The notes beneath the pieces were generated by a model. It was given only the letters and a program-made list of their open reading frames with translations, did no database searches and was not told the DNA's origin. From assembly GCF_000153485.2 (NCBI RefSeq), contig NC_018721.1, positions 3,100,001-3,164,000 on the forward strand: a stretch of 64,000 bases of DNA, in the 5' to 3' direction. The DNA comes from Psychroflexus torquis ATCC 700755. Lineage in GTDB: Bacteria > Bacteroidota > Bacteroidia > Flavobacteriales > Flavobacteriaceae. Made by a program: the position numbers and the translations under genes. Below, piece after piece: positions 41,250 to 62,045 of this stretch (the stretch's first letter is position 1; the number at the start of each line of letters is the position of its first letter).

Positions 41250-41381
41250 TTGTTGTAAAAGGTTAATTTGTTTAAGTATTAAAGTTAGTCAATAAATCAC
41301 AGATATGAAGTCCGTGAGTCCCGACGCTTTGGGATTTGTAAATTGGCTAAAACCAGCGCTAAATTTTGTAGGGTGTTGTGT
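41250..41381 (-). repeat. attC-like imperfect palindrome 1
   Basis: On the plus strand it runs from TTGTTGTAAAAGG to TAGGGTGTTGTGT, with central TCCCGACGCTTTGGGA hairpin. It is of the same family as the sites at 48684, 51143, 58680 and 61914 (shared AAATCACAGATA and GCTAAAACCAGCGC/ACTAGCAATAAATT positions). It follows the stop of the PH-domain gene on the minus strand. Confidence 0.6.
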
Positions 41382-41390
41382 AACGTTTTT

Positions 41391-41630
41391 TTAGTCTTCA
41401 GTTATGTTATTTTTTATTTTCGGGTTTAATTTTGTCAAATACTTTGCAAACTCAAATTTGTCTTTCGGTGAAATTATCATCTCTTGAAATTTTCCATATT
41501 TAATTTCAATTCGGTCAAACGAAGCTGCTGGAGAAGAAATAATAGTATTTGATTTTGTTATTTCCTTAATGTCATTAATTCCAATGTAGAAGATATTTTG
41601 GATAGGGTAGAGTATGAGGTTTAGGCTCAA
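41391..41630 (-). CDS. PH-domain-like protein, probably truncated
   Basis: The 79-residue frame resembles the C-terminal part of bacterial PH-domain membrane proteins: INDIKEITKSN, SSPAASFDRIEIKYGKFQEMIISPK, FAKYLTKLNPKI. The usual N-terminal pair of helices is mostly lacking and no ATG is available (the start would be TTG). The open frame continues about 25 codons upstream without a normal start. I read it as an internally deleted or truncated copy. Confidence 0.5.
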   Translation of the reverse strand: MSLNLILYPIQNIFYIGINDIKEITKSNTIISSPAASFDRIEIKYGKFQEMIISPKDKFEFAKYLTKLNPKIKNNITED

Positions 41631-41801
41631 AACAAGACCATAGATTAAAGAAGGGGCTGTCAGAAAAGTCTCTTTAGGGAAAATTGAAGCCTTCTTTTTT
41701 ATAGTTAATCAAATAATTGAGCAAAAAAATAATTACAATAAACCCAAATGATAAAACATATAGACTCTATGTGTGATAAAGAAGTCTTTCATTCATTATT
41801 T

Positions 41802-42509
41802 TTAAATAATCTTTTCGCCTACGATTCCTACTAAAAAACCAAGAGTTGCGCCAAGTGATGTTAGATAATTATTTTCTAATTTACTCTCGGGTATTATATC
41901 ATTTATCAATAAATACAATATACCTCCACTAGAAAACGTCATAAGGTGAGCAGTAATTACTGGAAAATCAGTCAAAAAATAATGTCCAATTAGAGCACCT
42001 CCAATTCCGAAAAAACTTAAAAAGAAAAATATTATAAGGGTCTTTTTTTCTGTAAAACCACTTAGTACTAAATCTCTATAAGCATTAAAAGCCTCGGGTA
42101 AATTTTGAAGACCTATAAAAACTGCTAGTAAAATTGCCAGGTTTGGTTCTATTGCAAATGTTGCCCCTAAGGCAATAGACTCTGGAATAAAATCCATCAA
42201 CATGGCTAACAACGCTGCATTTTTTCCTCCTTTCTTAGCTAAATAGCGATCAATTTGCAAAAAGATAATCACACCTCCTCCAAAAGATAATGCCATAGGT
42301 AAAACTTTCAATTCTTCCATCCCTTTAGGAATTAATACGAAAGTAACAGCAGACAAAATGATACCTGCACCAAATGACATTAACGTGTGTATTATTTCAT
42401 ATTTAACTGGTGTTTCCTTAATATGGTGGTTAAAATACTTCGCTAGAAGCCCACCAATGAATACTGTGACTCCAGCAAGTCCTGAAAATAAAATGATTTC
42501 TTGTAGCAA
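41802..42509 (-). CDS. ZIP family metal transporter
   Basis: The 235-residue protein has about eight hydrophobic helices. The metal-binding helices are LLAMLMDFIPESIALGATF (helix IV, P-E-S motif) and GLQNLPEAFNAYRD (helix V, with N and E). It moves zinc or iron into the cytoplasm. It is preceded on the plus-strand side by MITE copy E, which lies about 30 bases upstream of the start and may affect its promoter. Confidence 0.83.
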   Translation of the reverse strand: MLQEIILFSGLAGVTVFIGGLLAKYFNHHIKETPVKYEIIHTLMSFGAGIILSAVTFVLIPKGMEELKVLPMALSFGGGVIIFLQIDRYLAKKGGKNAALLAMLMDFIPESIALGATFAIEPNLAILLAVFIGLQNLPEAFNAYRDLVLSGFTEKKTLIIFFFLSFFGIGGALIGHYFLTDFPVITAHLMTFSSGGILYLLINDIIPESKLENNYLTSLGATLGFLVGIVGEKII

Positions 42510-42538
42510 AATTTTAAGTGATTTTAAATATGATTATT

Positions 42539-42701
42539 TATACCAATTTAGCATTCAAATGTCGTATAAAATCAGTTTCTTTTTCACTTACTAATCGTCA
42601 TAAAATAGAACCATAACTATTGCTATGCTTATATTTTTTTCCTCAACTAAGTAAAAAATAATTCAAATTTTTAATGCAACATTTAAAAACTAAATTGGTA
42701 T
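42539..42701. repeat. MITE-like palindromic repeat, copy E
   Basis: It has the same ends as copies B and C but lacks the internal CCTGTGCTGAGCTACG block, and is 163 bp long. The deletion removes one arm of the nested hairpin. Confidence 0.78.
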
Positions 42702-45299: not shown

Positions 45300-45353
45300 C
45301 TTAAGTTTGATTTCTAATATAATACTTAGTTTTAGTTATTAATCAGAAAGAAC

Positions 45354-45545
45354 AAAAGAGAGAATTAAGGTTACTTTATACGGTGAAGCTTCAGACTTCG
45401 ACAATCCCGAAGCCTCGGGAATAATCCTCTCTCTTTTACTTCTTTAATCACGTTCTCCCGATACCTATCAGGACTATGAGACATTAGATCTCATTTTCAA
45501 GTTTGTACTGAGCTTGTCTAAGTGTTGTTTTAATACTAGTAGCTG
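45354..45545 (+). ncRNA. Candidate bridge RNA (IS110 leader, copy 1)
   Basis: The leader before the transposase folds. The stem AAAAGAGAGAATTA (45354-45367) pairs with AATCCTCTCTCTTTT (45423-45437) around a hairpin TCCCGAAGCCTCGGGA (45405-45420), followed by a weaker hairpin at 45456-45473. The same elements recur in copy 2 with compensating differences. IS110 elements are known to express such an RNA from this side of the gene. The ends of the RNA are guesses. Confidence 0.5.
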
Positions 45546-45567
45546 GTTCTTTCATAAATCAATTTTT

Positions 45568-46536
45568 ATGTATGAATATAAAGAAACTATTGGAGTTGAC
45601 ATCAGCAAAGATGTTTTTGATGTTCACGGCATTACTACAGGTCATAATTAGTATAAAAATGATGAGTCAGGTTTTAAGGGGTTTCTTAAAAGATTACCTG
45701 CTCATTGTTTAGTAGCCATGGAAGCTAGAGGCTATTATCATTACGGACTCGCTCAGTTTCTTTACAAGAATGAAGTGGTAGTCTCTGTCATAGACCCTTT
45801 AATAATAAAGCGTTTTATACAAATGAAATTAGCAAAAATAAAAACAGATAAGAGTGATGCTAAAATGATTTGTGAATTTGCCTTAATTAACCAAGTGCCC
45901 TTATATGCTGATTTAACAGATGTACAAAGTGAATGTTTACACTTATTTAGAGTGCTAGATAATTTTATAAAACATCGTACTGCACCCAAGAATAAAATGC
46001 ACGGAGAAGAAGTATTAGGTATTCCATCAAAGTTCACATATCGATCTTTAAGACGAAACAAGAAGCAGTATGATAGTGAGATAAAAGCTATTGAAGAAAA
46101 GATTCTTTCTCTAGTAAAAGAGGACCAGCAACAACAACTCACATTGCTTATTAGTGTAACTGGTATAGGCCAGAAAACAGCTTTTTTTTTAATCCTAGTT
46201 ACTGATGGGTTTTCTAAGTTTGAAACAGCCTCGCAACTTTGCAGCTATGTCCGCATCACCCCAACGACTAGAGAATCTGGGAGCAGTGCGAGAGGCAGGC
46301 CACCTATAAGTAAGATGGGTAATAAAAAACTGCGAAATCTGCTGTTTTTATGTTCTTTTTAGGTCTGTAAGTACAACAAAGCATGTCGGGAACTTTATGA
46401 GCGCATAGTAAATAAAGGAAAAAGCAAGAAACTAGCCTTAATTGCCGAAGCCAACAAACTGCTCAAGCAATGTTTTGCTATCGCAAAATCTGGTAGGCTT
46501 TATAATGAAATGTACATTTCTGTTTTACCTAAATAG
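45568..46536 (+). pseudogene. IS110-family transposase, with two in-frame amber codons
   Basis: The frame from ATG 45568 reads MYEYKETIGVDISKDVFDVHG (with the first catalytic Asp of the RuvC-like DEDD domain), then TAG at 45649, YKNDESGF..., the middle KIKTDKSDAKMICEFA, then SGSSARGRPPISKMGN with the catalytic-serine region of the C-terminal domain, TAG at 46360 and a final TAG at 46534. A downstream start at 45718 would lose the first Asp. Two stops make it inactive unless read through. Confidence 0.75.
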
Positions 46537-46663
46537 GTAGAAAAAATCAATTAAAAAAGCTCAAAGAAACAGTTTTACGAATCTCTGAGTCTAGAATGCT
46601 AGTGTCTCAAAATTAATAAAGAAAAGAGTTGTTTTTACCTCAGTTCTTTGTTGGGTACAGTAA

Positions 46664-47257
46664 TTATTTTTTCCAAAATTTTTCGGCTATTTCCGCTGTT
46701 CCTATTTGGATTGTATTATTAATTATACATTTAAATCTTGATTCACTACAACCCCACATTCCGCCTTGATTTATTTCGTCTGCTACAAATTCTCTTTTTA
46801 TTAAATATTCTTTCTTTTTAATGTCAAATAAAACAAGTTCAAAACTCAAATTTAGTTTTCTGTCTTTATTTTCAGAGATATTCAAGTTATTATATTCTAT
46901 CAAATAGTCAGAATTTTTCTTTTCTTTAGTTTCAGAATCCATGTTTTTTTCTACCACAGAATATTTATTTTTTGGGAAATTTTCGTAGAGATAGAATTGT
47001 AAACTTTGCAATGTTACATTTCCTATAATTTTTTCAATAGTTAACTCTTCGATTTCCTTTTTCAGTTTTTCGTCTATTTTTCCGTTTGAACTTTCCAAAC
47101 TTCTGTTTTTTTCGTAATCTAAATATTCAGTTTTTTCAACATTTAGATTTTCCAACGTCGTAATATTCTCTGGATAAATAATTAAAAAACTACTTTTCTT
47201 ACTCTGACTAAATAGAATAAAAGGTAGAAATATAAAAATTATGATTGTTTTCTTCAT
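46664..47257 (-). CDS. Secreted or periplasmic protein of unknown function
   Basis: The 197-residue protein has a signal peptide (IIIFIFLPFILFSQ). The rest is charged, with a final conserved-looking YLIKREFVADEINQGGMWGCSES, and one disulfide is possible (CSESRFKC). No domain is recognised. It is one unit of the cassette region, bounded by the attC-like sites at 47275 and the one split by IS110 copy 1. Confidence 0.5.
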   Translation of the reverse strand: MKKTIIIFIFLPFILFSQSKKSSFLIIYPENITTLENLNVEKTEYLDYEKNRSLESSNGKIDEKLKKEIEELTIEKIIGNVTLQSLQFYLYENFPKNKYSVVEKNMDSETKEKKNSDYLIEYNNLNISENKDRKLNLSFELVLFDIKKKEYLIKREFVADEINQGGMWGCSESRFKCIINNTIQIGTAEIAEKFWKK

Positions 47258-47274
47258 TCAGTTTTTATTGTGCT

Positions 47275-47400
47275 CAACGATTAGTAAAGAAATAGTAGCC
47301 AACTGCATGGATTTTTCCTCTCAAAATACAAGAAAGTTAAAGTGGGTTACAACACTTGAATTTAGAACTGTCTTGGCTATTATTTTTATACATTGTTAAC
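47275..47400 (-). repeat. attC-like site between the secreted protein and serine hydrolase genes
   Basis: It has TCAACGATTAG at the left and TTTTATACATTGTTAAC at the right; AATAGTAGCCAA pairs imperfectly with TTGGCTATTATT. It overlaps the last codons of the serine hydrolase gene. Confidence 0.5.
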
Positions 47401-48654
47401 CACAGTTGTTCTCTTTTGTTTATTCTTTTTTCGGATTATGAAAATGGATAAACTGATAACAACGGCATAACCAATTAACAATAAACTTAAAATATATGAT
47501 TTGTTACGCATTATTACAACATAGTCAGCAATCCCTGCTTTCCAGAAAATCCATTCATCTGCAATTGATGAAGCAATATTATAATTTCCTGTTTCCAAAA
47601 TTATGATTCCATTTTTTGATTTAAGGTCAATTCTTGCTGCTGTATTAATTGCGTTATTTCCACTTCCATCGTGTCCAATTATATTAGAGTTTTGGTCATT
47701 TTGACTATAAAGATGAGAACCTAATCCATAAACGTCAATATCATTTATAAAAGTTTCAGGTTTACTCATTTCCGTAATAGTTTCTTTGGAAAGAACCGGG
47801 TTGTTTGAAACATTTGCTTCTAAAAATTTGGATAAATCTGCTGTAGACGTAAATAATGAAGCCGCTGCAAGTGCGGTAAATTTGTTCGGTTGTCTTGTTG
47901 TTCCGTTATCTTTATAAATTTGTGCTAACTGAACATTTGGTTTGTCAGTCAATACGAAGGTCGAATTTTCCATTTTCAAAGGTTCAAAAACCTCTTGTGT
48001 CATATATTCCTGAAAGGATTGACCGCTAATTTCCTCAATCAATAACTGCAATATTGTATAGCCAGCTCCCGAATACATATACTTGCTACCAGGTTCATAA
48101 CCCACTATTGCAACTCCATCAGAATATTCTGAATCTGAAGCTTTGGTTAATGATTCTTCAATTGTCTGAACGGTTTCATCTGGTGCAAAACCGTCATATC
48201 CAAGGTCGTCTACTAAGCCTGATGAATGAGAAAGCAATTTTCTGACTGTCACTTTTTTATTATCAAATCCACTTTCAGGTAGATGCCATCTTGTAAGGTA
48301 ATCATCAACTGGTTTATCCAAATCTAATTTACCTTGTTCTACCAATTTTAAGACTCCAAAAGATGTAACCCATTTACTGACAGAAGCAACTGGGAAAACA
48401 GTGTTTTCATTTACAGGTTGGTCAATAGAATGAAAAAAGTCTTTTGAAATTTTCCCATTTTCTATTAGCGCCATTGCAAAATTTCCAACGAACTCTCCAT
48501 CTATTTTTTCTTTGGTAGCCTCGATAAATGCATCAGAAGTGTTTTTGGAAGTAATGGATTTTAATAGAAATCCATTCATAGAACCATAACCGACAAAGGC
48601 TGTCCAAATTAAAATCGCCAGAATTATAAGAGCGATGTGTTTAAATGTTCTCAT
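47386..48654 (-). CDS. Serine hydrolase of the class C beta-lactamase/DD-peptidase fold
   Basis: The 422-residue protein has an N-terminal membrane helix and a C-terminal one (about 385-405). The beta-lactamase-like domain has SVSKWVTSFG (S-x-x-K, about 91-100), YSGAGYTILQLL (Y-S-G, taking the YxN place) and HDGSGNN (HxG, about 325). It may act on peptidoglycan peptides or other substrates; real beta-lactamase activity is uncertain. It starts just after a GTTGCCCACAATT cassette boundary. Confidence 0.75.
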   Translation of the reverse strand: MRTFKHIALIILAILIWTAFVGYGSMNGFLLKSITSKNTSDAFIEATKEKIDGEFVGNFAMALIENGKISKDFFHSIDQPVNENTVFPVASVSKWVTSFGVLKLVEQGKLDLDKPVDDYLTRWHLPESGFDNKKVTVRKLLSHSSGLVDDLGYDGFAPDETVQTIEESLTKASDSEYSDGVAIVGYEPGSKYMYSGAGYTILQLLIEEISGQSFQEYMTQEVFEPLKMENSTFVLTDKPNVQLAQIYKDNGTTRQPNKFTALAAASLFTSTADLSKFLEANVSNNPVLSKETITEMSKPETFINDIDVYGLGSHLYSQNDQNSNIIGHDGSGNNAINTAARIDLKSKNGIIILETGNYNIASSIADEWIFWKAGIADYVVIMRNKSYILSLLLIGYAVVISLSIFIIRKKNKQKRTTVVNNV

Positions 48655-48683: not shown

Positions 48684-48828
48684 GGGCAACGTTGTTGTAC
48701 AAGATTAGTTGCGTGGTTTAGCAGGTAATTTAGTGAATAAAAACTGAGTAGAAAATCCGCGAGTCCCGACGCTTCGGGATTCATAAGTAGGCTAGAACTA
48801 GCAATAAATTATATACGGCTTAAGTTTA
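48684..48828 (-). repeat. attC-like site interrupted by IS110 copy 2 (left part)
   Basis: It begins GGGCAACGTTGTTG and ends ATTATATACGG, where IS110 copy 2 starts. The end TGTTGTGCATTGGGC lies beyond the element near 50297-50310. The site has the central hairpin TCCCGACGCTTCGGGA. Rejoined it reads ATATACGG-TGTTGTGC, like the uninterrupted sites. Confidence 0.65.
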
Positions 48829-48863
48829 CAATTCATTAAATTTAGATATAAATCAGAAAGCAC

Positions 48864-49060
48864 CAAAGAGAGGAATAAGGTTATTATATACGCAGAGACT
48901 ATGATCTCGTCAATCCCGAAGCCTCGGGATAAATTCCCTCTCTTTTCTACACAGATTTCGAACTCCCGATATCTATCGGGAGTATCAGGCTTTAGACCTC
49001 GATTTTAAGCGTTGCACTGAGCTTGTTGAAGTGTCGTTGAAACTCGTGTAGTATGTACTT
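48864..49060 (+). ncRNA. Candidate bridge RNA (IS110 leader, copy 2)
   Basis: The arm CAAAGAGAGGAATAA (48864-48878) pairs with AAATTCCCTCTCTTTT (48931-48946) around TCCCGAAGCCTCGGGA (48914-48929). A second, perfect hairpin CTCCCGATA-TC-TATCGGGAG lies at 48963-48982. The outer stem sequence differs from copy 1 but still pairs. Confidence 0.5.
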
Positions 49061-49079
49061 TCAAAAAAAACATTTTGTT

Positions 49080-50265
49080 ATGATTAAAAATATTAAATAT
49101 TTTGGAATTGACATTAGTTATTTAGTGTTTGATGTTACAGATTCTGATGGTAAATAGTATCAGTTTAAAAACAATGTATCAGGCTTAAAAAAGTTCACAA
49201 AGCTCTTAAAAACAGATAGTCATTGTGTTATGGAAGCCACCGGTTATTACCACTACCAACTGGCTTACCATTTACTTGAATCTGGTATAAAAGTATCTGT
49301 AGAAAACCCATTAGCTGTAAAACGTTTTATCCAGATGAAGTTGTCAAAAATCAAGACAGATAAGAGTGATTCAAAACTTACTTGTGAGTATGCTCAAAAG
49401 GTAGATCTAAAACTGTGGAAGGGTAACACTAAGGATGAGATGGAATGTCTTCAAAACACCAGAGCCCTCTCTGTATATACAAAGCAGAGCACTATGTTAA
49501 AAAACAAATTACATGGTGAGGACGTATTGGGTGAGCCGAGTAAAGCAGTTGTAAGGTCTTTAAAACGAAGTTTAAAACAGCTTATAAAAGAGATGAAAAC
49601 CTTAGAAGATAAGTTGTTGGTTTTAGTAAAACAAGAGCATCAAGACCTATTAACTCGTTTAAAAACTAGTCCAGGTGTTATACTAAATTAGACCTATAAT
49701 GACGCAATAAATCGTTTTACCGATACGAATTCGGCACAGGCTTTTTTCGCCTGCTTTTCATCAAAAATAATTACCGTAGCTAAGGCTATGCTAGTTATTT
49801 TTGATTTCAATCAATCAAAAAACCTGTGCTGAGCTACGCCGTAGTATAATTTAATTTATTCATACGGCATTATAAATATAATTTGGTATTGGACCTAAAA
49901 CATCCATTATGTTAGTGGTTTTAACAGGTGGTTTTGATCGGTTTACAAGTGCAGCAGAATTATGTAGTTACGCAGGTTTGACACCAGTGATTAGGCAAAG
50001 TGGAAGCAGTGTAAAAGGACGACCTCGAATTAGTAAAATTGGCAATCAAAAACTTCGTAATTTATTATTTATGTGCAGTTTTAATGCTTGTAAATATAAC
50101 AAGGCTTGTAAAGATCTTTACGAGCGGATAGTAGCCAAAGGGAAGAGTAAGAAATTAGCACTTATTGCGGTATGCAATACCCTCTTAAAACAGGCCTTTG
50201 CCAACGCAAAATCAGGGTTGATATATGACAAAGAATATAAAAGTACTCTAGTGAGAAATAAATAA
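49080..50265 (+). pseudogene. IS110-family transposase, amber codon and MITE insertion
   Basis: The frame from ATG 49080 reads MIKNIKYFGIDISYLVFDV (catalytic Asp present, following K changed to Y), then TAG at 49155, then YQFKNNVSGLKK. It is open through KIKTDKSDSKLTCEYAQ until MITE copy F interrupts at 49679, between Val and Gly of a PGV-GPKTS sequence. After the MITE the frame continues with SGSSVKGRPRISKIGN, which holds the serine-domain motif, to a normal stop. It is about 55-60% identical to copy 1. Confidence 0.75.
49679..49889. repeat. MITE-like palindromic repeat, copy F (inside IS110 copy 2)
   Basis: It is 211 bp long, starts TATACTAAATTAG and ends ATAATTTGGTAT. Removing it restores the transposase codons across the junction (...PGV GPK...). 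The nested hairpins are TCAAAAATAATTACCGTAGC with GCTATGCTAGTTATTTTTGA, and CACAGG...TTTTTT with AAAAAACCTGTG. Confidence 0.82.
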
Positions 50266-50269
50266 GTTT

Positions 50270-51115
50270 TTACTTGTTTTTCGCCACAGTACTTTGTTGT
50301 GCATTGGGCTTTTTCCTCACAAGTATTAAAATCAGTCCGATAATAATAAAAGGAATACTTAAAATTTGTCCCATATTAATCATCATTCCGCTTTCAAAAT
50401 CAACTTGATTTTCTTTAAAAAATTCGATTATAAATCTTGCGGAAAATATTAAAATTAAAGCAACGCCTAAAATCAGTCCGTTTATTTTTATTTTTTTCTT
50501 CTTATAGATTAGCATTAATATTCCAAATATTAAAACATATGAGAAAGCCTCATAAAGTTGAGTTGGATGTCTTGGTATTAAATCATCTCTTTGAAAAACA
50601 ACTCCCCAATTTCCGTTTGTTGGTTTTCCATAAATTTCAGAATTCATAAAATTCCCAAACCTTATAAACGCAGCTACTATAGGTGAAACAAGTGCAATTC
50701 TATCTAAAACCGATAAGAAATTTGTTTTATACTTTTTACAATAAATTCCGATTGCAATTAAAACTCCAATTGTTCCTCCGTGACTTGCTAATCCTTGAAA
50801 TCCGATGAATTGGTATGTATCTCCTATTTTTTTAATTGGCAGTAAAATTTCGACTGGGTTTGCAAAATAATATGAAGGGTCATAAAATAAACAATGTCCG
50901 AGTCTTGCTCCCAGAAGTATTCCCACAACAACGTAAATAAATAACTTTTCTAAATTTTCAATTGGTATATTTTCTTTAATGTAAATGCGTTTCGCAACGT
51001 AATGTGCCAAAATAATTCCGGTCATAAAAAATAATCCATAATACTTTAAAGGAAAGGTTTCTGTTATCCAATAAATTACTGGGTCAAGATTCCAATTTAT
51101 AATTCTATCGTTCAT
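50270..51115 (-). CDS. lgt: Prolipoprotein diacylglyceryl transferase, in the cassette region
   Basis: The 281-residue integral membrane enzyme adds the diacylglyceryl group to lipoprotein cysteines. It has the Lgt signatures GLASHGGTIGVLIA (about 113-126) with the His-Gly-Gly, RFGNFMNSEIYGKPTNGNWG (about 152-171), and RHPTQLYEA (about 183). Seven membrane helices are expected. The C-terminal residues (...NAQQSTVAKNK) are encoded by the right end of IS110 copy 2, so the tail was probably replaced. It is likely an extra copy because Lgt is essential and normally chromosomal. Confidence 0.88.
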   Translation of the reverse strand: MNDRIINWNLDPVIYWITETFPLKYYGLFFMTGIILAHYVAKRIYIKENIPIENLEKLFIYVVVGILLGARLGHCLFYDPSYYFANPVEILLPIKKIGDTYQFIGFQGLASHGGTIGVLIAIGIYCKKYKTNFLSVLDRIALVSPIVAAFIRFGNFMNSEIYGKPTNGNWGVVFQRDDLIPRHPTQLYEAFSYVLIFGILMLIYKKKKIKINGLILGVALILIFSARFIIEFFKENQVDFESGMMINMGQILSIPFIIIGLILILVRKKPNAQQSTVAKNK

Positions 51116-51142: not shown

Positions 51143-51277
51143 TGTACAACGAGTTTGTGTAAGGTTATTTGCGTGTTTTAAGCAATTAATTTAGCAAATA
51201 AATCACAGATAGAATATTCCGCTGGAATGTTCGTAAGTCGGCAGTGACCAAGCAATTAATTATACACCGTGTTATGT
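51143..51277 (-). repeat. attC-like site between lgt and the 186-residue gene
   Basis: It runs from GTACAACGAGTTTGTG to ATTATACACCGTGTTATG. Internal TTCCGCTGGAA forms a central hairpin, and TTAAGCAATTAATT...CAAGCAATTAATTATA are further symmetrical blocks. Confidence 0.7.
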
Positions 51278-51870: not shown

Positions 51871-52059
51871 AACGTTAAATATATGGCAAGTTGGGCAGAA
51901 AATAAGCGATTACTTTCGGTTTACCACAAGCCAGATCTTTTTATTTTGTTTTAATTTTTCTCTTTTAATACCAAATCAAAAGATTTGGCGACTTTGCAAA
52001 TAGACAACAACCATTGGATTAAGTACTAATCGCCCAATTTGCTATATATAGTGTTAGCT
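51871..52059 (-). repeat. attC-like site between the 186-residue gene and the small gene
   Basis: It is 189 bp, starting AACGTTAAATATATGGCAAG and ending GCTATATATAGTGTTAGC. The inner arms GGCAAGTTGGGC and GCCCAATTTGC pair with wobbles. The end overlaps the stop codon of the small gene. Confidence 0.6.
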
Positions 52060-54091: not shown

Positions 54092-55582
54092 TCATTTCAA
54101 TTTTGCTTTCACTTTCTTAGTTAAATAATAACCGCCAGTTTGTGCAGCTTCTCCTCTAAATTCAATTAATTCTGCTTCTTTTAATTGTTGCAGATATCTT
54201 TCCATTGTTCTTTCAGAAACACTAATTGCAGTAATATATTCGGGCGCTCTATTTCCTTCATGTTTAGCAATAGCTTTAAGAAGAGTAGATAGTTTTTCTT
54301 TAACTTTCTTCGTAGCTCCGTCAATAGCTCCGTCAATAGCTCCGTCAATAGCTCCGTCAATAGCTCCGTCATTATCTTTAGTTATAGCTCCGTCAATTGT
54401 TCCGTCACTAGCTCCGCCAATTTTACTATTACCAAAGAAAGTAAGTTTAACAGTTTGCTCTCCAATATCCCAAACAGGTGCTTTAAGACCTGCTTTCTTA
54501 CATTCATCTGAAATCATAATAGTTCCCCTACCTATTTTCTCAATAAACCCTCTTAAAAACACCATATGAGCTATGTCTGGATTGTAAGGCATGGAAAGAT
54601 GACTCTTCTTGAGCTCGCTCTGCTTGTATGGTGATTTCCCCGTATTGCCCACTTCAATTTTGTCCGGATAGACAATTACAGCCATAGCACTAGAAGGAAT
54701 AGAATATTCACGATGCACTAGTGCATTCATAACACCTTCACGTAATGCTCTCATTGGTATTTCATAATCGTCTTCTCTTTTCCATTCTTTTTTGTCAAAT
54801 TTTCTCTGTAATTGTAAGTGTTTCTCGAAAAAGTCGAGAATGGCAATCCTGTTTTTGAAAAGATTACCATCTAATAATCGATCATCAGTAAATTTACTTC
54901 CAGTTTTTCCGCCTTTCAAAAGCGCAACTCGAACACGAGATTGAGGAATAAATCGTGCAGGATTTTTAGCAAACAACAGCACCGAAGCATTGGTGAAATT
55001 ACCCTTTTGATAAAGTCCATAATGAGATAAAAAGTCTATTGGCTCTCGCTTATTCTCACTAAAATTATCGTCAAATCTTGCAGCCTCTATAGTCTTTTGA
55101 ATTTCTTCCAAATCAAAATCACTAAATTCTACACCAAGGCATGCTTGTCGCTCCCAATGAATTTCAGTTTCTTGCCGTTTGTGTATAAGCGCTGAAATTT
55201 CTTTTGATGAGGCCTGAATGGTTCTATCATTTCTGCGATAGTAAATGCTTCCATTAAAAATATATGGCTGTTTTGAACCTTCCCATACTTTAATGAGTAG
55301 CAATTGTTTATCTCCATAATTTTCAATAGAAACCATAACAGGAGCTTCTGGCACCAATTCTTTTAGTAAGTATTGTTCCAATTCTCTTTGGCGTTTCTCC
55401 GCGTTTATAATGCCTTTGACAGTTTTGTTATCAGTAATACCAAGCAGCAATTGACCTCCTTGATTATTTAAGAAGCCGCAAATAGTTTTACCGGTGGCGT
55501 CTTTGCGAACAACTTCTTTGAACTCAAGCTGTCCGCTTTCTTCTTGCTTCAGAAGATCTTTTATGAGTTGTTCTGATTTCAT
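54092..55582 (-). CDS. AlbA_2 (Schlafen-type) DNA-binding plus ATPase-like regulator
   Basis: The 496-residue protein starts with an AlbA_2 domain (ESGQLEFKEVVRKDATGKTI, then CGFLNNQGGQLLLGI), followed by a GHKL-type ATPase/HATPase_c_4 segment (REGVMNALVHREYS and MVFLRGFIEKIGRGT), and a C-terminal winged-helix domain (SVSERTMERYLQQLKEAELI). Between the last two is a low-complexity linker with four or five copies of DGAI, from 12-bp tandem repeats. It overlaps the DUF4062 gene by four bases. The pair could be a defence or regulatory unit. Confidence 0.78.
   Translation of the reverse strand: MKSEQLIKDLLKQEESGQLEFKEVVRKDATGKTICGFLNNQGGQLLLGITDNKTVKGIINAEKRQRELEQYLLKELVPEAPVMVSIENYGDKQLLLIKVWEGSKQPYIFNGSIYYRRNDRTIQASSKEISALIHKRQETEIHWERQACLGVEFSDFDLEEIQKTIEAARFDDNFSENKREPIDFLSHYGLYQKGNFTNASVLLFAKNPARFIPQSRVRVALLKGGKTGSKFTDDRLLDGNLFKNRIAILDFFEKHLQLQRKFDKKEWKREDDYEIPMRALREGVMNALVHREYSIPSSAMAVIVYPDKIEVGNTGKSPYKQSELKKSHLSMPYNPDIAHMVFLRGFIEKIGRGTIMISDECKKAGLKAPVWDIGEQTVKLTFFGNSKIGGASDGTIDGAITKDNDGAIDGAIDGAIDGAIDGATKKVKEKLSTLLKAIAKHEGNRAPEYITAISVSERTMERYLQQLKEAELIEFRGEAAQTGGYYLTKKVKAKLK
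54315..54370 (+). repeat. 12-bp tandem repeat within the AlbA_2 gene
   Basis: The unit GCTCCGTCAATA is repeated about five times, plus diverged units on both sides (54386-54415). Its length keeps the reading frame, so copy number changes would only alter linker length. Confidence 0.8.
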
Positions 55583-56163
55583 TGATCTAGATTATTTAAA
55601 TTGGCTAATTCACGCTCCACTCTTTTTATATCTCTGAACAGCGTTTCTATGTGTCGCATTGCTTCATCAGGTCTGAAAAATTCCTGAACCCAATGGTGCT
55701 TTCGTTCTTCGTAAGGCAAGTCTATTTGGACGGCGTCATTGTACATATCAATTACCCGAACACTATCCATAACAGAAGTAGTTTGAATTTCAAAGTCATT
55801 CCGCTGAGTATTGGCAGCATCTGCATACATATACTGTGCTAGTAGCTTTCTTGAGAACGTAACGAAACTATGTGCTATATATCTTCTCGGTTTATTGATA
55901 GCAATAGCCCTTAGAAACTCCTGATGAGTAATTCCAGTACTATACATTGGATTTATAATCCCAAAGAAAACATCACACTCTTCAACAGCAGCAAGACATG
56001 CGTCAGTATTATTCATTCCAAGTGGTGGATGTAAAGTCCCGAACTCTGAATTGATTACGTGATAGCCGTAAGTATTCAGTATCCCACAAATTTGCAGCAG
56101 CAAATCACGATTTTGGTAAACCGTGGATGCAACCATTAGCTTTATTTTTTGTTTTTTAGCCAT
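55579..56163 (-). CDS. DUF4062 domain protein
   Basis: The 194-residue protein has the DUF4062 pattern: KLMVASTVYQNRD at the start, VINSEFGTLHPP, AAVEECDVFFGIINPMYSTGITHQEFLRAI and KPRRYIAHSFVTFSR. DUF4062 is found with NACHT, AlbA_2 or similar partners and is suspected of sensing or a nucleotide-hydrolase role. It is the first gene of a pair with the AlbA_2 protein. The start follows ATACCGTATATAG, a remnant of an attC-like arm. Confidence 0.75.
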   Translation of the reverse strand: MAKKQKIKLMVASTVYQNRDLLLQICGILNTYGYHVINSEFGTLHPPLGMNNTDACLAAVEECDVFFGIINPMYSTGITHQEFLRAIAINKPRRYIAHSFVTFSRKLLAQYMYADAANTQRNDFEIQTTSVMDSVRVIDMYNDAVQIDLPYEERKHHWVQEFFRPDEAMRHIETLFRDIKRVERELANLNNLDQ

Positions 56164-56212
56164 TCTTGTCTATATACGGTATCTTTTTTTGCATGAAGCA
56201 GTAGAGTAGAGC

Positions 56213-56259
56213 CTGATTGTTTTATTATATTCTCTATACGAATATAATAAAACAATCAG
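56213..56259. repeat. Perfect 19-bp inverted repeat in domain VI position
   Basis: Arms of 19 bases (56213-56231 and 56241-56259, starting CTGATTGTTTTATT) with a nine-base loop. It is where domain VI of the group II intron is expected. No bulged adenosine can be placed with confidence. Confidence 0.6.
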
Positions 56260-56274
56260 CACCCCCTTCATCAA

Positions 56275-56298
56275 ACACTTCGACAGGCTCAGTGCAGC
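56275..56298. repeat. REP-like sequence inside the domain V region of the intron
   Basis: ACACTTCGACAGGCTCAGTG is followed by CAGCG. Related sequence (GCACTGAGCTTGTTGAAGTG) is in the IS110 leaders at about 45509 and 49014. It interrupts the sequence between CACGG and the TTTGATGAAGG expected to follow it. Confidence 0.45.
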
Positions 56299-56343
56299 GC
56301 CGTGCATGAAGTTTTCCCTCACACGGCTTACCGATAGATTTCT

Positions 56344-57105
56344 TTATTGAGCTTTCGCAAGGGTTTTTAAACGTGCATACTTTTCTATGTCAAATAGGTT
56401 GTAAAATTTAACCAAATTCTCATAGGGTCGCTGGCGTAGCTTCCGATGCGCTTTCCTTCCTTTGCACTTCATCCATTTAAATAATTTGTAATCCAGATGC
56501 TTTTTAATGATTTTTATGGTTTCCCAAATATGTGTAACCTTACTGATAGAAAAGTAATTTAGCCAACCTCTTAATAATTGATTGACCTTCCATACTATCC
56601 ACTCAATTGTCCAATGTTTTCGATTTGCAAATAGTTCTCGCAATTTTGAAAACAATTTAGACCGTGACTTCATACTGGGTCGTACATTGGTGTAATTCTT
56701 GGCATTCCATCCAAATTTGGACTTTATACTTCTAAATTCAAACCCCAAAAAGAATAAACTGCTCTTGCTACTATGCAAAAGTTTTGTCTTTTCTTTATTT
56801 AACGTTAATCCCATATTATCCATTATACTAGTGATATAGTCCAGTATCTCTTTGCTGAAATACCATTTACCCATCAATAGAAAATCATCTGCATAACGAA
56901 CTATGCGGATGTTTGCCTTGGCAAACTTCCCCTTCGGATTGTTTACAATCTGGTCAAATGCATGGAGATATATGTTGGATAATAATGGCGAGATAACTTC
57001 CCCTTGTGGACTTCCTTTGGTACTCGCTACTAGCTTTCCGTTGGGTAGCCGTACAGGCGCAGTTAACCATTGATGTATCAAACTTAAAATACTATGATCT
57101 ACCAA
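56344..57105 (-). pseudogene. ltrA: Group II intron reverse transcriptase, C-terminal part after a frameshift
   Basis: This 253-residue frame has VDHSILSLIHQWL, the TKGSPQGEVISPLLSNIYLH motif and the RYADDF active site (YADD, about residues 70-73), then a maturase X domain (LRGWLNYFSISKVTHIWE). It is separated from its N-terminal part by a frameshift at a run of A near 57110. Confidence 0.85.
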
Positions 57106-57719
57106 CCTTTTCTTTTCTTTAGTAAAATAAATAATTTAGTATGCGGGATGGTGTCAAAATACTTCGACAAGTCCGCATCATAGACAAATTGATGCCTATC
57201 ATAAATATTTTGTTTTACTTGCTTTATGGCGTCTTTTGCTCCTCGTTTGGGTCTAAATCCAAAAGAGGTATGCTCAAAATCTGCCTCCCAAAGTGGCTCT
57301 ATTAGCATCTTTACTGCCATTTGAACCACGCGGTCGCGAATTGTTGGTATTCCTAATACCCTAAAATCTCCTTCCTTTTCCTTGGGGATGAGCTTTTGCT
57401 TTACTGCTTGGCTCCTGTAGGTGTGACCTTGTAAGTCTTGTTGAATCTCGCCAAGAAAAATAGATATTCCTTGCTTTTCAATAGCGTCAAAACTTTGATT
57501 GTCTACACCTACCCCTTTAGAATAGTTGCTCCTAACTCGTCGAAAAGCTTCTATAAGCGTATTGCCCTCACAGAGTTTTCCGTAAAGACTATAAGCCTTG
57601 AAGCCCTTATCTTGCTTGGCTCTAATATATAGCTTCCTCTGAAAAACACGAATAGCTGCATCGCTTTGCGATGGACTTGTTAATAGATTTACATCAATAC
57701 TTGTCATTCTGTCTTTCAT
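57099..57719 (-). pseudogene. ltrA: Group II intron reverse transcriptase, N-terminal part
   Basis: The 206 residues include the RT0-RT3 region: VGVDNQSFDAI, RSQAVKQKLIPKEKEGDFRVLGIP, QMAVKMLIEPLWEADFEHTS and DADLSKYFDTIPH. The frame then shifts at LLKKRKGW, so the YADD half is read only after a frame change. The normal fusion would read ...LLKKR-LVDHSIL. Confidence 0.85.
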
Positions 57720-58187
57720 ATAAGCATATCTAAAGTAGTGTCCCTTTCCTAATTAGAGTTTTGTTGTCTCTAACATCATAGGTACTATGAACACCTCCGA
57801 CTTCTCTTGCTACAGCTAGTAATTTCGTAATACTTATGTACTAGCTTTTATAGTTGCCACCATTTGTAACAAGAGACCTCCCACGTTTCGTAGTTTTCCA
57901 TCTATAACCACGCCATCCCTATGACTCCGGTAGATTGTTACACTTCATACTACTGTTTATCCATGCAACATAACAGGGTTCGAGAACGTCGAAACTCTCC
58001 CCAATCTACAGATACACTTATCGAAGCTACTACGGGTTCACACTTGCGTATTACAGCTTGGTTATTTGAACATGCCAAGCTTCAGCGAAATCCTCACAAA
58101 TTTAACTGTCGGCAGCTCTTCTAAATGAACAGCAAATTATTTAGGTAGGATTTACACCTACTGGAAAACCACAACTTCGTGGCGCAC
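57720..58187 (-). ncRNA. 5' region of the group II intron RNA (domains I-IV, before the reverse transcriptase)
   Basis: About 470 bases with no ORF between the intron 5' end and the reverse transcriptase start. Such introns have folded RNA (domain I) here. The sequence near 57880-58080 contains hairpin-forming stretches, but I cannot assign domains. Confidence 0.5.
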
Positions 58188-58240
58188 CAACGTTAAGAAT
58201 ATGAAACGGCTTTTTTGCTGTTTTATATTTAGTGTTGTAC
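58188..58240 (-). repeat. attC-like site with the group II intron at its end
   Basis: CAACGTTAAGAATATGAAACGG and CTGTTTTATATTTAGTGTTG are paired arms with wobbles; GTTGTAC lies at the cassette end. The intron begins immediately beside CAACGTT. Confidence 0.62.
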
Positions 58241-58247
58241 TCAGTTT

Positions 58248-58670
58248 TTACTTATATCTTATTCCAATAGAACTTGATCCCCCTTTCGGATCGTTGTCTG
58301 CCCAAACTTCTCCCCAATTAAAATCCCTTTCTTTACCTATTTCTTGAGTTAACCAGTCTTGATACTTTTTTAATTTTTCTTTTTTGCTCTTCTCACTCCA
58401 AGAGTCCCAACCAGAGTTTAAATCAAATGGGTTGTCATTTATCACCATTGAGAGTTCAGATAATTCTTCTTCTTTAAAGCAAAGAGACATTATGAAGTAC
58501 TTGTCACCAATTTGAATGTTTTTAATGTCTAGCCATTTATAACCGTTACCCGTATCTCGGATTTCTTGAACTTCTCCTAATTTCTGACTTTCAATCAAGT
58601 AAAAGTTTGAGTTTGGTGTCAACTCCAGTGAATCATTCAACTCAATATGTCCTTTGTTTTTATCTATCAT
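58248..58670 (-). CDS. Unknown acidic protein in a cassette with matching ends
   Basis: The start is the ATG giving MIDKNKGHIELNDSLEL; an upstream TTG lies within the cassette core. The product has 140 residues and the fold is unknown, with WGEVWADNDPKGGSSSIGIR near the C-terminus. The ends of its unit match exactly: GTTGTACTCA at the start (plus 58677-58686) and TGAGTACAAC at the end (plus 58234-58243). Confidence 0.5.
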   Translation of the reverse strand: MIDKNKGHIELNDSLELTPNSNFYLIESQKLGEVQEIRDTGNGYKWLDIKNIQIGDKYFIMSLCFKEEELSELSMVINDNPFDLNSGWDSWSEKSKKEKLKKYQDWLTQEIGKERDFNWGEVWADNDPKGGSSSIGIRYK

Positions 58671-58679
58671 TCTAATTGA

Positions 58680-58810
58680 GTACAACGTTGTTGTATATGG
58701 TTTGTTGCGTGGTTAAGCATCTAATTTAGCAAATACAAACCGAATATAAAATCCGCGAGGATTTTCGTAAGTAGGCTAGAACTAGCAATAAATTATATAC
58801 GGTGTTACCA
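58680..58810 (-). repeat. attC-like site between the two unknown genes
   Basis: It runs from GTACAACGTTGTTGTATATGG to TTATATACGGTGTTACCA, 131 bp. Central hairpin AATCCGCGAGGATT. The arms GTATATGGTTTGTTGC and GCAATAAATTATATAC pair with wobbles. Confidence 0.75.
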
Positions 58811-58817
58811 CACGTTT

Positions 58818-59420
58818 TTATTTTTCCTTTTTATAAGTTAATATATTTCCTCTCGGAAAGTACATTAGATTTAAAAACTCTTTATTATATCCAAGTATTT
58901 CATATTTCAGAGTATCCGATTTATTTGTCAATATTAAAAACTCTCCAGGTTTTAATTTAGTATCAGCAAATTCTGGCAATTTATCAGTCACTTTGTAGTC
59001 ATAAATATCGCTTGAGTCAGTTTCCGTTCCTTTATAAAACATTATCCATCTCCGATTTTTAATTTCAATTCCAGCGAGTGTATCTTTTTCGTCAATCCAA
59101 ATTTCATTTTTAAAATATGTTGTATTCTCTTTAATTGAGTTTTGAACATTTGAATCGTATTCGCTATTGCTATTTACAATTTGCATATAAATGAAAAAAA
59201 AAGTTACGGGAATCAATCCAATAATTATTTGCCAATATTTATAATTCTTTAATTGTTTAGTCGGTTTGTTCAGGAACAAAAAAAGTATTCCAAAAACCAT
59301 TGAAATGAAGAATAAATATGTAGGCCACATTTGTTCTGTAAACATTCGAATATTCATCACAATTCCGTAAATCAAATACGAAATGGCAAATAGTCCAAGA
59401 GGTGTTTTAAGGTTTGTCAT
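58818..59420 (-). CDS. Four-helix membrane protein, unknown function, cassette with matching ends
   Basis: The 200-residue protein has three or four hydrophobic helices at the N-terminus (to about residue 85) and a soluble C-terminal part. No known family is recognised. The unit ends match over 10 bases: GTTACCACAC at the start (plus 59446-59455) and GTGTGGTAAC at the end (plus 58804-58813). Confidence 0.5.
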   Translation of the reverse strand: MTNLKTPLGLFAISYLIYGIVMNIRMFTEQMWPTYLFFISMVFGILFLFLNKPTKQLKNYKYWQIIIGLIPVTFFFIYMQIVNSNSEYDSNVQNSIKENTTYFKNEIWIDEKDTLAGIEIKNRRWIMFYKGTETDSSDIYDYKVTDKLPEFADTKLKPGEFLILTNKSDTLKYEILGYNKEFLNLMYFPRGNILTYKKEK

Positions 59421-59502
59421 TCTTGAATTTAGGTTTTTTTCAAATGTGTGGTAACATCCTTATAAACCCTATTCAAATCTTCGTTATAGGGTATATATCT
59501 AT

Positions 59503-59757
59503 TTAGGACGTTGTTTTATTTTCATCTAAACTAACACTTTCATACATATTATCCAATGGACTTTTTATTGTTTTGTTATTAATCGCTAAAACTCGAGTGT
59601 AGATTTCTGTTGTTTTTGAGCTATTATGACCTAAAGCGGCCTGGATATGTCTTAAACTTGTCCCCCGTTCCATAAGGTGTGTGGCAAAACTATGACGTAA
59701 AGTGTGTGGGGTACTCCAAGGGTTTCCGTTGGTCTCTTTCACAGCTTTTCGATACAT
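59503..59757 (-). pseudogene. Tyrosine recombinase, C-terminal fragment
   Basis: Eighty-four residues of the catalytic domain: [24 protein letters not shown] (H-x-x-R), [12 protein letters not shown] (the nucleophilic Tyr of the TEIYTRV motif) and a tail ending SPLDNMYE. A stop lies about 14 codons upstream, so the N-terminal domain and first Arg are gone. The SPLD tail is typical of Bacteroidota recombinases linked to IS91-like elements. Confidence 0.7.
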
Positions 59758-59931
59758 ACTTTGATCTTTAGATGCTTTCGTTATTTTTAGTCATAAATTA
59801 ATTATGCCTTGGTCACCTAAATTAGTTAAAACAGACTTTAAAAAACTACTTTTTTAATCATTTAAAGGTATTTAACCGTTAAGAACGGATAGACTTAAGT
59901 TATGTCCTTGCCGAGATGTTGTGAAAAATAA

Positions 59932-60306
59932 ATGCAAACTTTGCTTAGTAGCCTATCGACTTATGATTGTTGTAAGATTATCAAAAAAACCACAGTAACA
60001 CTCTCCACTAAAGAATTTATACGGCGTTTTCAACTCCATATTCTTTCCAAAGGCTTTACCCGAATAAGGCATTATGGGTTTTTGAGCAGCAGTTGGAAAA
60101 AAGAGAAGTTGCCGCTATTACAACTGCAATTAAGAGATAAAAACTTGGCACACATATTAACCTTTGCCACTCAAGAGAAGTCCTTACATCGCTGTTGTCC
60201 GAGTTGTAAAAAGCAAACCTTGATCACACTTTTTACTTTTGACAGTTGCGGGCCGCCAAAGGATTACAAAAAAATTATAAAGGATACACTGGAATACAAA
60301 AATTAA
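59932..60306 (+). pseudogene. IS91-family transposase, C-terminal fragment
   Basis: One hundred and twenty-four residues: EFIRRFQLHILSKGFTRIRHYGFLS in the middle and CCPSCKKQTLI zinc-finger-like Cys pairs near the end. The catalytic tyrosines lie upstream in a full protein and are missing here. It faces the recombinase fragment. Confidence 0.72.
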
Positions 60307-60574
60307 AAAATAGTTCTAAAAAGAGCCTTGACTTACTAGTGCCCAAACTGAAGCAAAATGATAAAAAAAAGCAGATTCTCACATAAAAAAAGCATGATCT
60401 CCCTAAAAAGTACTCTATTCAGATAAGCAACTGAATAAAAAGGGATGCAAAGCACTCTGAAAAAAACCTTCTCCTCTTGTAAGGTTCCTGCCAACTCATC
60501 GAATTCCCCCTTATTTAAAAATACCGGATCAGTCAACAAATCATATAGCTTTGGCCTATCGGCAAGCCATATGC
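60307..60574. other. Region beside the IS91 remnant
   Basis: These 268 bases have no supported gene. They contain poly-A tracts and may include the remaining 3' end of the IS91-like element. The expected attC-like end of the agmatine deiminase unit is not recognisable. Confidence 0.35.
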
Positions 60575-61906
60575 TTAGTTATTTTTCACGCTTGGCTGTT
60601 GTTGTGTTGAACAGTGAATACCTCCTCCATCCCAATTTTGTGGCATCGCATTGATAAATACAATTTTTCTATTTGGAAATTGTTTTTCAAAAATGTTGCG
60701 AACACGATTTTCTTTTTCTTTTGAAGAGCCTTCGTCAACATAACTTGAAATCAATACAACTCCATTGGTTACCAAATAATTAAGATAACTTGAAGCGGGA
60801 ACGCGCAATAACGTATCGCCAACTTTTGGTGCTTCTGAAATATAAAATCTGTTTGCAGGAATATCAAGAGAAGGTTCTTTAGAATATTCCTTTGTTGCAA
60901 TTATTTTTCTTGGTTTTAAATCAGGTAGTGGGACTTTTATAATAGTGAATGGTTTACCGTCTTGGTCTGTTGCGTTTTTTAATATTTCAAAACTTTCATT
61001 GAGACGCTCATAATTCATTTTGTTTATTGGATTTAAGTCTTTTTCTGATTCATCTACCCAAGCCAATAAAATGGTATTTGCATTTGAAAATCGCACAAAT
61101 TCATCAGAATGTTGCACACCTCCACCAACATAATCGCCTGTGATTCGTCTAAAAAAACCATTTGGGTCGTCTGCTAGACCTCGTTTTAGCCAAATTACTT
61201 TTGAAACACCCAAAACTCTTTTGAATTCACTTTCAATATAGTCGTTTGTTAAGTTAGGATTTCTGTGCCTGACCGCTGATTCACAAACGATAAGTGTCCC
61301 TTTACCGTTTACCTCAATATTACCACCTTCGTGAACTACGTTTGTTTTGAAAATTTTAGCACCTTCTACTTTTGCCATAAGGCTATCGACTTTACTCGTT
61401 CTAATAATAGACGGCAATCGTTCTTGCATGTATTTGTTCACGCTGTCTTGATTGTTGTTGAACTTTTCCTTGAGAAATACAGGATATCCAAATAGATTCC
61501 AGTCAAAGTCAGCAACTCCCAAATCTCCTTTGCCATTAACTAAAAAAGCTGCACCATGGTCTCTTATCCAATAACGGTCTCCAGGCATTACATAGAATTT
61601 GATATTTGTGGTATCAATTTTTTGACGGATTAAGTATCTTTTTGCTGTGTGCATAAGGCTGTCAGAGTCAAATGCCATTTTTACGGTTACGTTTGGCGTA
61701 AGTGTTTTTATCATCTCAATTACTACTGGATAAAAGCCATATCTGCTATCTGATTCCCAACCAAGCCAAACAGCATCTTGAGGTTCCCATTCGGCGGGCA
61801 TATAAAAGTTATCAGAAATTAGATTTGAGTCCGCAGACTTGTCATTTTTACAACTAATGAGTAGAAAAATGATTATTGTTAATGTTATGTATTTCATTTT
61901 TTTCAT
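60575..61906 (-). CDS. Agmatine deiminase/peptidylarginine deiminase-like lipoprotein, copy 2
   Basis: The start is the ATG giving MKKMKYITLTIIIFLLISC (lipoprotein signal, Cys at 19); the frame is open 39 codons further upstream into the attC-like site. The 443-residue protein has PAEWEPQDAVWLGW, YWIRDHGAAFLV, EGGNIEVNGKGT, VQHSDEFVRF and the catalytic Cys in DGGGIHCSTQQQP. It is a paralogue of 36506-37789. It begins 14 bases after a GTTGCC cassette boundary. Confidence 0.85.
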   Translation of the reverse strand: MKKMKYITLTIIIFLLISCKNDKSADSNLISDNFYMPAEWEPQDAVWLGWESDSRYGFYPVVIEMIKTLTPNVTVKMAFDSDSLMHTAKRYLIRQKIDTTNIKFYVMPGDRYWIRDHGAAFLVNGKGDLGVADFDWNLFGYPVFLKEKFNNNQDSVNKYMQERLPSIIRTSKVDSLMAKVEGAKIFKTNVVHEGGNIEVNGKGTLIVCESAVRHRNPNLTNDYIESEFKRVLGVSKVIWLKRGLADDPNGFFRRITGDYVGGGVQHSDEFVRFSNANTILLAWVDESEKDLNPINKMNYERLNESFEILKNATDQDGKPFTIIKVPLPDLKPRKIIATKEYSKEPSLDIPANRFYISEAPKVGDTLLRVPASSYLNYLVTNGVVLISSYVDEGSSKEKENRVRNIFEKQFPNRKIVFINAMPQNWDGGGIHCSTQQQPSVKNN

Positions 61907-61913
61907 AATTAAT

Positions 61914-62045
61914 GGCAACGTTGTTGTATATGGTTTGTTGCGTGTTTTAAGAACTAAAGTTATTAAATAAAACACAGATATAAAGTCTGCGAGAATTTTT
62001 CGTGAAGAAGCTAAAACTAGCAATAAATTATATACGGTGTTAGGT
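61914..62045 (-). repeat. attC-like site between agmatine deiminase and hsdR
   Basis: It runs from GGCAACGTTGTTGTATATGG to AAATTATATACGGTGTTAGGT. The final GTTAGGT matches the canonical GTTRRRY. The internal hairpin around TCTGCGAGAATTTTTCG is weak. Confidence 0.72.

Follow-up and report, generated by a model that had tools for sequence, protein, structure and literature searches.

A probable integron-like gene-cassette array in Psychroflexus torquis and the non-IntI tyrosine recombinase likely to run it

What are the imperfect palindromes that lie between the minus-strand genes in one stretch of the Psychroflexus torquis genome, and which enzyme works on them? The stretch analysed here, referred to as the window, comprises 64,000 nucleotides (C1:3100001-3164000, where C1 is the single contig of the 4.32-Mb genome). 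Coordinates without a prefix count from window position 1, while those with "C1:" are contig coordinates; L-numbers denote fetched loci and G-numbers genomes searched, of which G022 corresponds to Psychroflexus gondwanensis, a species of the same genus. The original prediction for the region from 41.2 to 62.05 kb was of an integron-like gene cassette array, with the reservation that it could be a separate recombination system, and the reservation has become its better-supported half. We consider it very probable that the stretch is a decayed gene-cassette array of an integron-like system, whose enzyme is likely a tyrosine recombinase that does not belong to the IntI family. In its workings the system resembles an integron, yet it does not count among the IntI integrons: defining features of these were looked for and were not found. 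The cassette array as such stood, given an attI, an integrase gene adjoining its intact copy, a moved cassette, and first cassettes that differ at one attI across species, while the strict integron label fell for want of an IntI domain and of GTTRRRY cores. The recombinase is tied to the sites by position and linkage, from which we infer its role.

Cassette borders, paired arms and moved units

The border of a classical integron cassette lies just after the G of G^TT, and the attC of that cassette opens with the complement of the cassette's first bases. The cassettes described here begin at G^TT and end in a hairpin site running AAC...G^TT. Start and end of a cassette form a private 14-bp complementary arm with a conserved A.C at position 11, which is not shared with the neighbouring cassette, and complementarity between neighbouring cassettes within an array does not go beyond background. 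The arm test was made without assuming any gene model. In the arrays of named relatives, at least 6 of 7 variable arm positions were paired in 26 of 29 own-cassette pairs, with the partner hundreds of bases away, as against 1/36 for adjacent sequence and 4.2% for random pairs. The same test on G020 gave 52/70 for the own cassette, 7/71 locally and 3.8% at random, and many of the misses are long gaps in which a site probably went unfound. When consecutive pairs were pooled, 76 of 96 passed at nine or more of ten arm positions; among the passing pairs, the unselected positions 12, 13 and 14 paired at 91, 97 and 96%, position 11 was A at the start against C at the end in 69/76, and pairing fell to background beyond position 14.

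The consensus of the starts is GTTR, six less constrained bases and an A that is present in 123/123 starts. The core GTTRRRY was found in 6/102 array starts and 2/21 attI starts, and its inverse RYYYAAC in 8/103 sites; the earlier remark that not every core fits GTTRRRY was thus borne out, with eight fits among 123 starts. Both consensus forms are named in PMC3053210.

The features concerned are listed below in the sense of the minus-strand genes, headed by the recombinase outside the window. R1 stands for a covariance model built on an alignment of 18 full sites of this genome, taken on the strand opposite the genes, and arm values give the paired positions.

C1:3774739-3775878, 0.6 Mb from the window: intact tyrosine recombinase of 379 amino acids (aa)
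61917..62041, minus: attC-like site S5, end of an 8.6-kb type I restriction-modification (R-M) unit; R1 115 bits; arm 9 of 14, the first 8 consecutive, without A.C at 11
60575..61916, minus: agmatine-deiminase-like cassette behind S5, read from the sequence, its gene name being that of the original prediction and not a library match; without its own attC, an IS91-like repeat (boundary 60583) beginning at the 3′ end of the open reading frame (ORF)
59984..60583, plus: remnant (transposase C-terminus and end) of what we take, from its sequence and not from a library match, to be an IS91-like insertion sequence (IS), joined to the integrase relic and repeated over 600 nt (89-97%) in L020, L027, L030 and L032
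59503..59757, minus: internally deleted integrase relic of 84 aa, in which about codon 9 runs directly into about codon 295; it shares 95% identity with residues 292-379 of the intact recombinase
59452..59519, minus: attI-like site whose crossover G (of G^TT) is at 59455; 72.5 bits (E 8e-21) in nhmmer with a four-row model that includes this site
58686..59454, minus: cassette 1 (ORF 58818-59420); arm 13 of 14, A.C at 11
58684..58806, minus: attC-like site S4, AAC to GTT; R1 132 bits
58189..58236, minus: short attC-like hairpin ending cassette 2 (ORF 58248-58685), read from the sequence; arm, checked at 58234, paired at positions 1-10 and 12-13, A.C at 11
56184..58187, minus: probable group II intron, its reverse transcriptase ORFs split, inserted immediately after the attC core; RF02005 45.8 bits, E 3e-11, just under the gathering score of 49; RF00029 23 bits; homologous copies in L020, L031 and L163
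54020..54071, minus: short attC-like hairpin, noted on reading the sequence; it follows cassette 3 (DUF4062 and Schlafen-AlbA genes, 54092-56163), the start of which is broken by the group II intron; the following cassette starts exactly at G54022
51873..54021, minus: cassette 4, split by an IS3-like insertion (about 52290-53535); arm 12 of 14, A.C at 11
51871..52055, minus: long attC-like site of cassette 4, belonging to the moved unit; R1 18.1 bits, E 0.15
51148..51273, minus: attC-like site S3, end of cassette 5 (ORF 51285-51845); R1 124 bits; arm paired at positions 1-10, A.C at 11
50270..51115, minus: lgt-like ORF of cassette 6; PF01790, E 4e-64; arm weaker, 10 of 14, A.C at 11
48823..50298, plus: presumably IS110-like element (named after its ORF sequence) inside an attC, directly after AAC; repeat copies in the genome
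48688..48822, minus: attC-like site S2, cut by the IS110-like element; R1 88.7 bits
47276..47397, minus: attC-like site ending cassette 7 (beta-lactamase-fold ORF 47386-48654); R1 21.8 bits, E 0.023; arm 10 of 14, A.C at 11
46650..47277, minus: cassette 8 (ORF 46664-47257); arm 11 of 14, A.C at 11; a second IS110-like element (about 45331-46649) interrupts its attC
41246..41377, minus: attC-like site S1, degenerate 3′ end; R1 80.6 bits

The window arm test covered cassettes 1, 2 and 4-8 and the type I R-M unit. Cassettes 1, 2, 4, 5, 7 and 8 were paired at 10-13 of 14 positions, and the A.C at position 11 was present in 7/7 tested cassettes lying wholly in the window, the lgt cassette included. 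As for the cargo formerly named, lgt has its Pfam match PF01790, the supposed TIR gene is DUF4062 by Pfam, the hsdR cassette starts outside the window, and several units are interrupted by insertions (IS110-like, IS3-like, IS91-like and group II intron). The R-M unit (C1:3162045-3170626) holds a helix-turn-helix gene, hsdM, hsdS, an AbiD-like gene and hsdR, and lies between an attI outside the window and an attC.

Cassette 4 has a second copy at C1:2053782-2054678, 100% identical over 485 nt and 99.8% identical over 417 nt; in the window the IS3-like insertion separates these aligned parts. The identity starts at the G of G^TT and ends just past AACG^TT; on the upstream side the window has another attC and the second copy an attI, and the downstream cassettes differ too. 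The comparison of related strains suggested with the original prediction gave a result of the same kind: in P. torquis and P. gondwanensis an intact recombinase, 97% identical, and its attI stand beside what is by eye the same upstream gene, and the sequences diverge at the G^TT of attI, from which point the first cassettes differ.

It is possible, if rather unlikely, that the cassettes were assembled formerly and that present movement is IS91-like rolling-circle transposition of attI-cassette-attC blocks, a scenario compatible with the array set out above. A 1.1-kb repeat (approximate length) that reaches from an IS91-like end to attI is present in several copies, and the genome has one full-length integrase of the 379-aa type, both in keeping with such a history, yet it leaves unexplained that cassette 4 stands behind attI once and behind attC once, and that one attI is followed by different first cassettes in two species.

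The recombinase, its attI and their spread

At the intact locus the order is recombinase, attI (C1:3774684-3774755), two-gene cassette and attC, and this attI is the same sequence as that of the window. Other intact platforms likewise run from recombinase through attI and cassette to attC. By eye the first cassette carries ImmA-like and PIN-like genes, the first of which matches RmrA models. The proposed search for an IntI or a related recombinase with an attI has led to a non-IntI tyrosine recombinase of 379 aa directly before attI. According to Pfam, the protein has SAM-like and phage-integrase domains. Its best NCBIfam model is the XerA-type NF040815 with 194 bits (cut-off 220), and the integron integrase model TIGR02249 gives 187.7 bits (cut-off 265). 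The IntI-specific domain was not found in it, the alignment to IntI4 (2a3v) breaking between chain residues 214 and 243. The same holds more widely, as the best recombinases of 12 attC-rich genomes all match TIGR02249 in two pieces, with the stretch from about 177-201 to 239-245 missing. PMC9668308 treats the additional domain as the mark of IntI. In a quick tree, made without bootstrap and with long-branch warnings, a branch (SH-like approximate likelihood ratio test, 100) sets 21 IntI rows apart from the attC-linked recombinases. The non-IntI rows are not one clade by their labels, and the attC-linked label needs 5 changes because three close relatives are labelled otherwise and L118 and L121 fall elsewhere.

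An ordinary IntI integron with a lost integrase, its cassettes being clusters of attC sites lacking integron-integrases (CALIN) moved by an IntI elsewhere or formerly, would also have the integron-like anatomy seen here. Canonical IntI does occur in the phylum, where 105/395 sampled genomes have one over the cut-off, and integrons are reported from Bacteroidota in PMC8618304. Nevertheless, none of the 12 attC-rich genomes has an IntI over the TIGR02249 cut-off, the class Bacteroidia has canonical IntI in 1/295 genomes, the attI platforms sit behind a non-IntI recombinase, and the cores seldom fit GTTRRRY at array or attI starts, all of which makes this explanation very improbable.

A contig scan with two short patterns gave 56 recombinase loci, hosted by Psychroflexus, Aequorivita, Gelidibacter, Algibacter, Planktosalinus, Profundicola, metagenome-assembled genomes labelled Chitinophagaceae, Bacteroidales and Chlorobiota, and others. 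The 52 examined exclude L114, L120, L124 and L125, of which the last two look unrelated or tiny. An attI-like site, with an end like TATA...ATG^TT, lies behind the gene in 46/52 loci, nearly always followed by a differing cassette start. A first attI pattern was applied to 43 of the 52, L079, L095, L096, L101, L105, L108, L109, L118 and L121 having been set aside by eye where the downstream sequence was short or showed no site, and it was unmatched in L102, L106, L115 and L123. A wider pattern located sites in L101, L102, L106, L108, L109, L115, L078 and L086 and a mutated one in L123; of its 47 matches, that in L121 is false, and those in L087, L104 and L117 are misplaced, their site being shown by the first pattern, hence 46/52. 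Among the 52, attI was absent in L079, L095, L096 (at most 75 nt left), L105 (where the contig ends within the site) and L118. An exact complement of the 10-nt cassette start was present within 3.5 kb downstream in 23/34 loci, against 12/1116 swapped pairs (1.1%); this test used named loci from Bacteroidota and Chlorobiota records and also omitted L071, L110 and L112 (too little sequence) and L078 and L086 (pattern misplaced). Contigs stop within 3 kb of the gene on its downstream side in 31/52 loci and on its upstream side in 6/52, an excess as expected if repeats break assembly.

At 50 recombinase loci, R1 found 50 sites in 18 loci, all on one strand and 47 of them downstream of the gene; at L106, from Algibacter amylolyticus, there are ten within 8.3 kb. 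In 90 kb of G020 there are 72 R1 matches at E<=0.05, of which 71 lie on one strand over about 76 kb, an array headed by a related recombinase of 392 aa. Across 60 genomes searched, that of P. torquis included, sites were found in 31 and a recombinase match at E<=1e-40 in 35. The enzyme family involved is probably wider than the 379-aa type, because several distant recombinases (L067, L047, L051 and L045) have a site directly behind them, in genomes without closer ones. Many of the related recombinases at loci L045-L069 have 370-638 aa and an enlarged N-terminal part, and an attC-like site immediately follows some of the genes. Related recombinases also occur in 77 plasmid records, 50 of them from Acinetobacter, all below 60% identity; the Acinetobacter ones listed show 49% identity over 65% of the query.

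The hairpin sites

Instead of the roughly ten palindromes first claimed between minus-strand genes, nine sites were counted: five belong to one covarying repeat family (S1-S5, R1 80-132 bits), two are weak R1 matches (47276-47397 and 51871-52055), and two are short hairpins unrelated to the family (54020-54071 and 58189-58236), also at cassette ends. Palindromes at about 43.0, 44.2 and 45.2 kb, possibly meant in the claim, were folded and are not among the nine. The sites do lie between minus-strand genes, beginning with AAC and ending with GTT in the gene sense as had been stated, with damaged ends in S1 and S2. Across 103 sites, AAC and GTT were each present in 102, partly by construction as R1 models both. 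The suggested covariance-model check, carried out with R1 on window and genome, returned the five strong window sites and at least 63 genome matches at E<=0.01. Four of the five are among the 18 training rows, making their scores partly a matter of construction, and S2 is not. At E<=1 the window has 8 matches, one being the reverse strand of a true site.

The 18-site alignment has 21 pairs in all, including a 15-bp stem in which 6 pairs are changed on both sides, and sliding the partner strand by 1-3 columns lowers the paired cells from 92.8% to 34-45%. There are 28 double-change cells against 9.9 in shuffled alignments, and on three of five covariation measures the alignment exceeds every one of 500 shuffles; for 83 distinct sites from relatives, in an alignment fitted to the model, the count is 320 against 96.6. 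The G-T wobbles described earlier are real: the plus strand, opposite the genes, folds more stably in 18/18 sites of the genome set, with a mean difference of -2.5 kcal/mol against -1.0 in shuffles and 4/18 sites beyond the 5% level of their own shuffles. At the consensus level, the 83 sites have a conserved G.U at two positions (81/83 and 73/83), without clear bulged bases.

That the hairpins are transcription terminators, or repeats resembling miniature inverted-repeat transposable elements (MITEs) or repetitive extragenic palindromes that are intergenic by chance with no cassettes at all, would suit their being palindromic, repeated and intergenic, yet such a repeat would not make the DNA ends between two sites complementary, unlike those of neighbours, nor yield an exact duplicate unit with new flanks, so we regard it as extremely unlikely.

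Several observations weigh against a cassette array run by the non-IntI recombinase. R1 found no site in 32 of the 50 named loci, where other attC types could be present, and in the P. torquis genome it scored 150 of 3621 first-look candidates. Site-rich genomes may have only more distant recombinases (38-45% identity, 370-600 aa). On the other two measures of covariation, 30 and 16 of 500 shuffles did at least as well as the 18-site alignment, and the strand asymmetry in folding energy is partly base composition. The P. torquis arrays are decayed, with one full-length recombinase gene of the 379-aa type and many relics. Some units fit the arm poorly, namely the lgt cassette at 10 of 14 and the R-M unit at 9 of 14 without A.C; the latter, at 8.6 kb, is unusually large for a cassette and may contain lost sites.

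Proposed mechanism, known systems and decay

In regard to the mechanism, the recombinase would cut the folded opposite strand between G and T. Within the array each site would be mispaired, its partner belonging to the next cassette, and only excision, yielding a circle whose attC arm becomes fully paired, would restore the whole arm. The circle would then be inserted at attI, just behind the recombinase's own gene, the paired arms favouring integration. The A.C on one strand and G.T on the other may mark the strand to be folded, replacing the extrahelical bases read by IntI. In its fullest form, the proposal is of a second Bacteroidota integron lineage with superintegron-sized arrays, private 14-bp arms telling a free cassette from an integrated one, and A.C/G.T together with an extra N-terminal domain in place of extrahelical-base reading; to this we give an even chance.

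Like IntI integrons, the system has an attI next to the gene for a tyrosine recombinase, tandem cassettes of one or two genes that all point the same way, attC hairpins folding best on the bottom strand, a G^TT border, complementary cassette ends, and attC attacked by IS and group II introns. It differs in a recombinase without the IntI-specific domain, outside the IntI clade and with an extra N-terminal region of about 90 residues, in cores of the form GTTR-N6-A instead of GTTRRRY, and in the private 14-bp arms with conserved A.C/G.T. Furthermore, the recombinase gene reads toward the array, with attI at its 3′ end, whereas in classical integrons the integrase gene is usually divergent from the array. 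The array of G020 (71 sites, about 76 kb) is large and made of homogeneous long attC repeats like the Vibrio cholerae superintegron with its Vibrio cholerae repeats, but the recombinase at its head is not an IntI.

IntI integrons are known from the phylum according to PMC8618304 and PMC2426708, and IntegronFinder 2.0 names one complete integron in Bacteroidetes proper, that of Salinibacter ruber M1 (PMC9024848). The 11 taxa of published taxon-specific attC models (PMC8352920) include no Bacteroidota. In a literature search covering some of the sources, with preprints and most subscription journals outside its range, no paper was found on integron-like arrays with non-IntI recombinases in Flavobacteriia. 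Surveys define integrons via IntI and attC models from other taxa, and it appears that they have for the most part missed a means of gene capture that exists in parallel to classical integrons. If the system works as proposed, a large gene-capture reservoir in marine and cold-environment Bacteroidota is uncounted, and single-strand cassette recombination is possible without the IntI domain.

Decay and dispersal are visible throughout the genome. In 504 kb of it (12%, chosen around integrase relics), 21 attI-like sites were found, many following the same internal integrase deletion, and at several loci the repeat of about 1.1 kb begins at an IS91-like end, spans the deleted integrase and stops at attI. 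The repeat units at 59452-60583 in the window, L033:13139-14232 and L027:8414-9511 resemble a non-autonomous mobile unit. IS91-like elements have probably copied the internally deleted integrase with its attI around the genome, and insertion sequence common region (ISCR) elements copy class 1 integron parts likewise. In the ISCR-linked class 1 (complex) integrons, too, an IS91-like end is joined to integrase-attI remnants and repeated in the genome; here the integrase is internally deleted, and the copies are chromosomal and dispersed.

Other elements have landed in attC. The same IS110-like end abuts three attC-like sites in the genome, and the group II introns of the window, L020 and L163 begin beside attC sites. 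Insertion into one attC end recalls the IS1111-attC elements and group IIC-attC introns; the likeness is one of insertion position, with the families partly typed, and the host here is a flavobacterium with non-canonical attC. IS1111 elements targeting attC are known, with insertion into one attC end reported for ISKpn4 and ISPst6 (PMC11187229).

Six attC-like sites, in L019, L027, L028, L030, L031 and L033, are cut after CCAT by the common sequence AGTGTGCCAAGAATCA(A/G)CC... (C1:3772824, 1510836, 1850659, 2058227, 2062868 and 3749145), which is probably the end of another site-targeting element. Three attC-like sites (L020:2607-2733, L027:12568-12693 and C1:2058228-2058352) are preceded by a common end, GTACGAGGATTAGTTCAAC, near a gene for a 299-aa tyrosine recombinase in two of the three cases. 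Finally, a MITE-like repeat of about 190-210 bp is present in the window at 38007-38190 and 49680-49890, as well as in more than 10 fetched loci of the genome.

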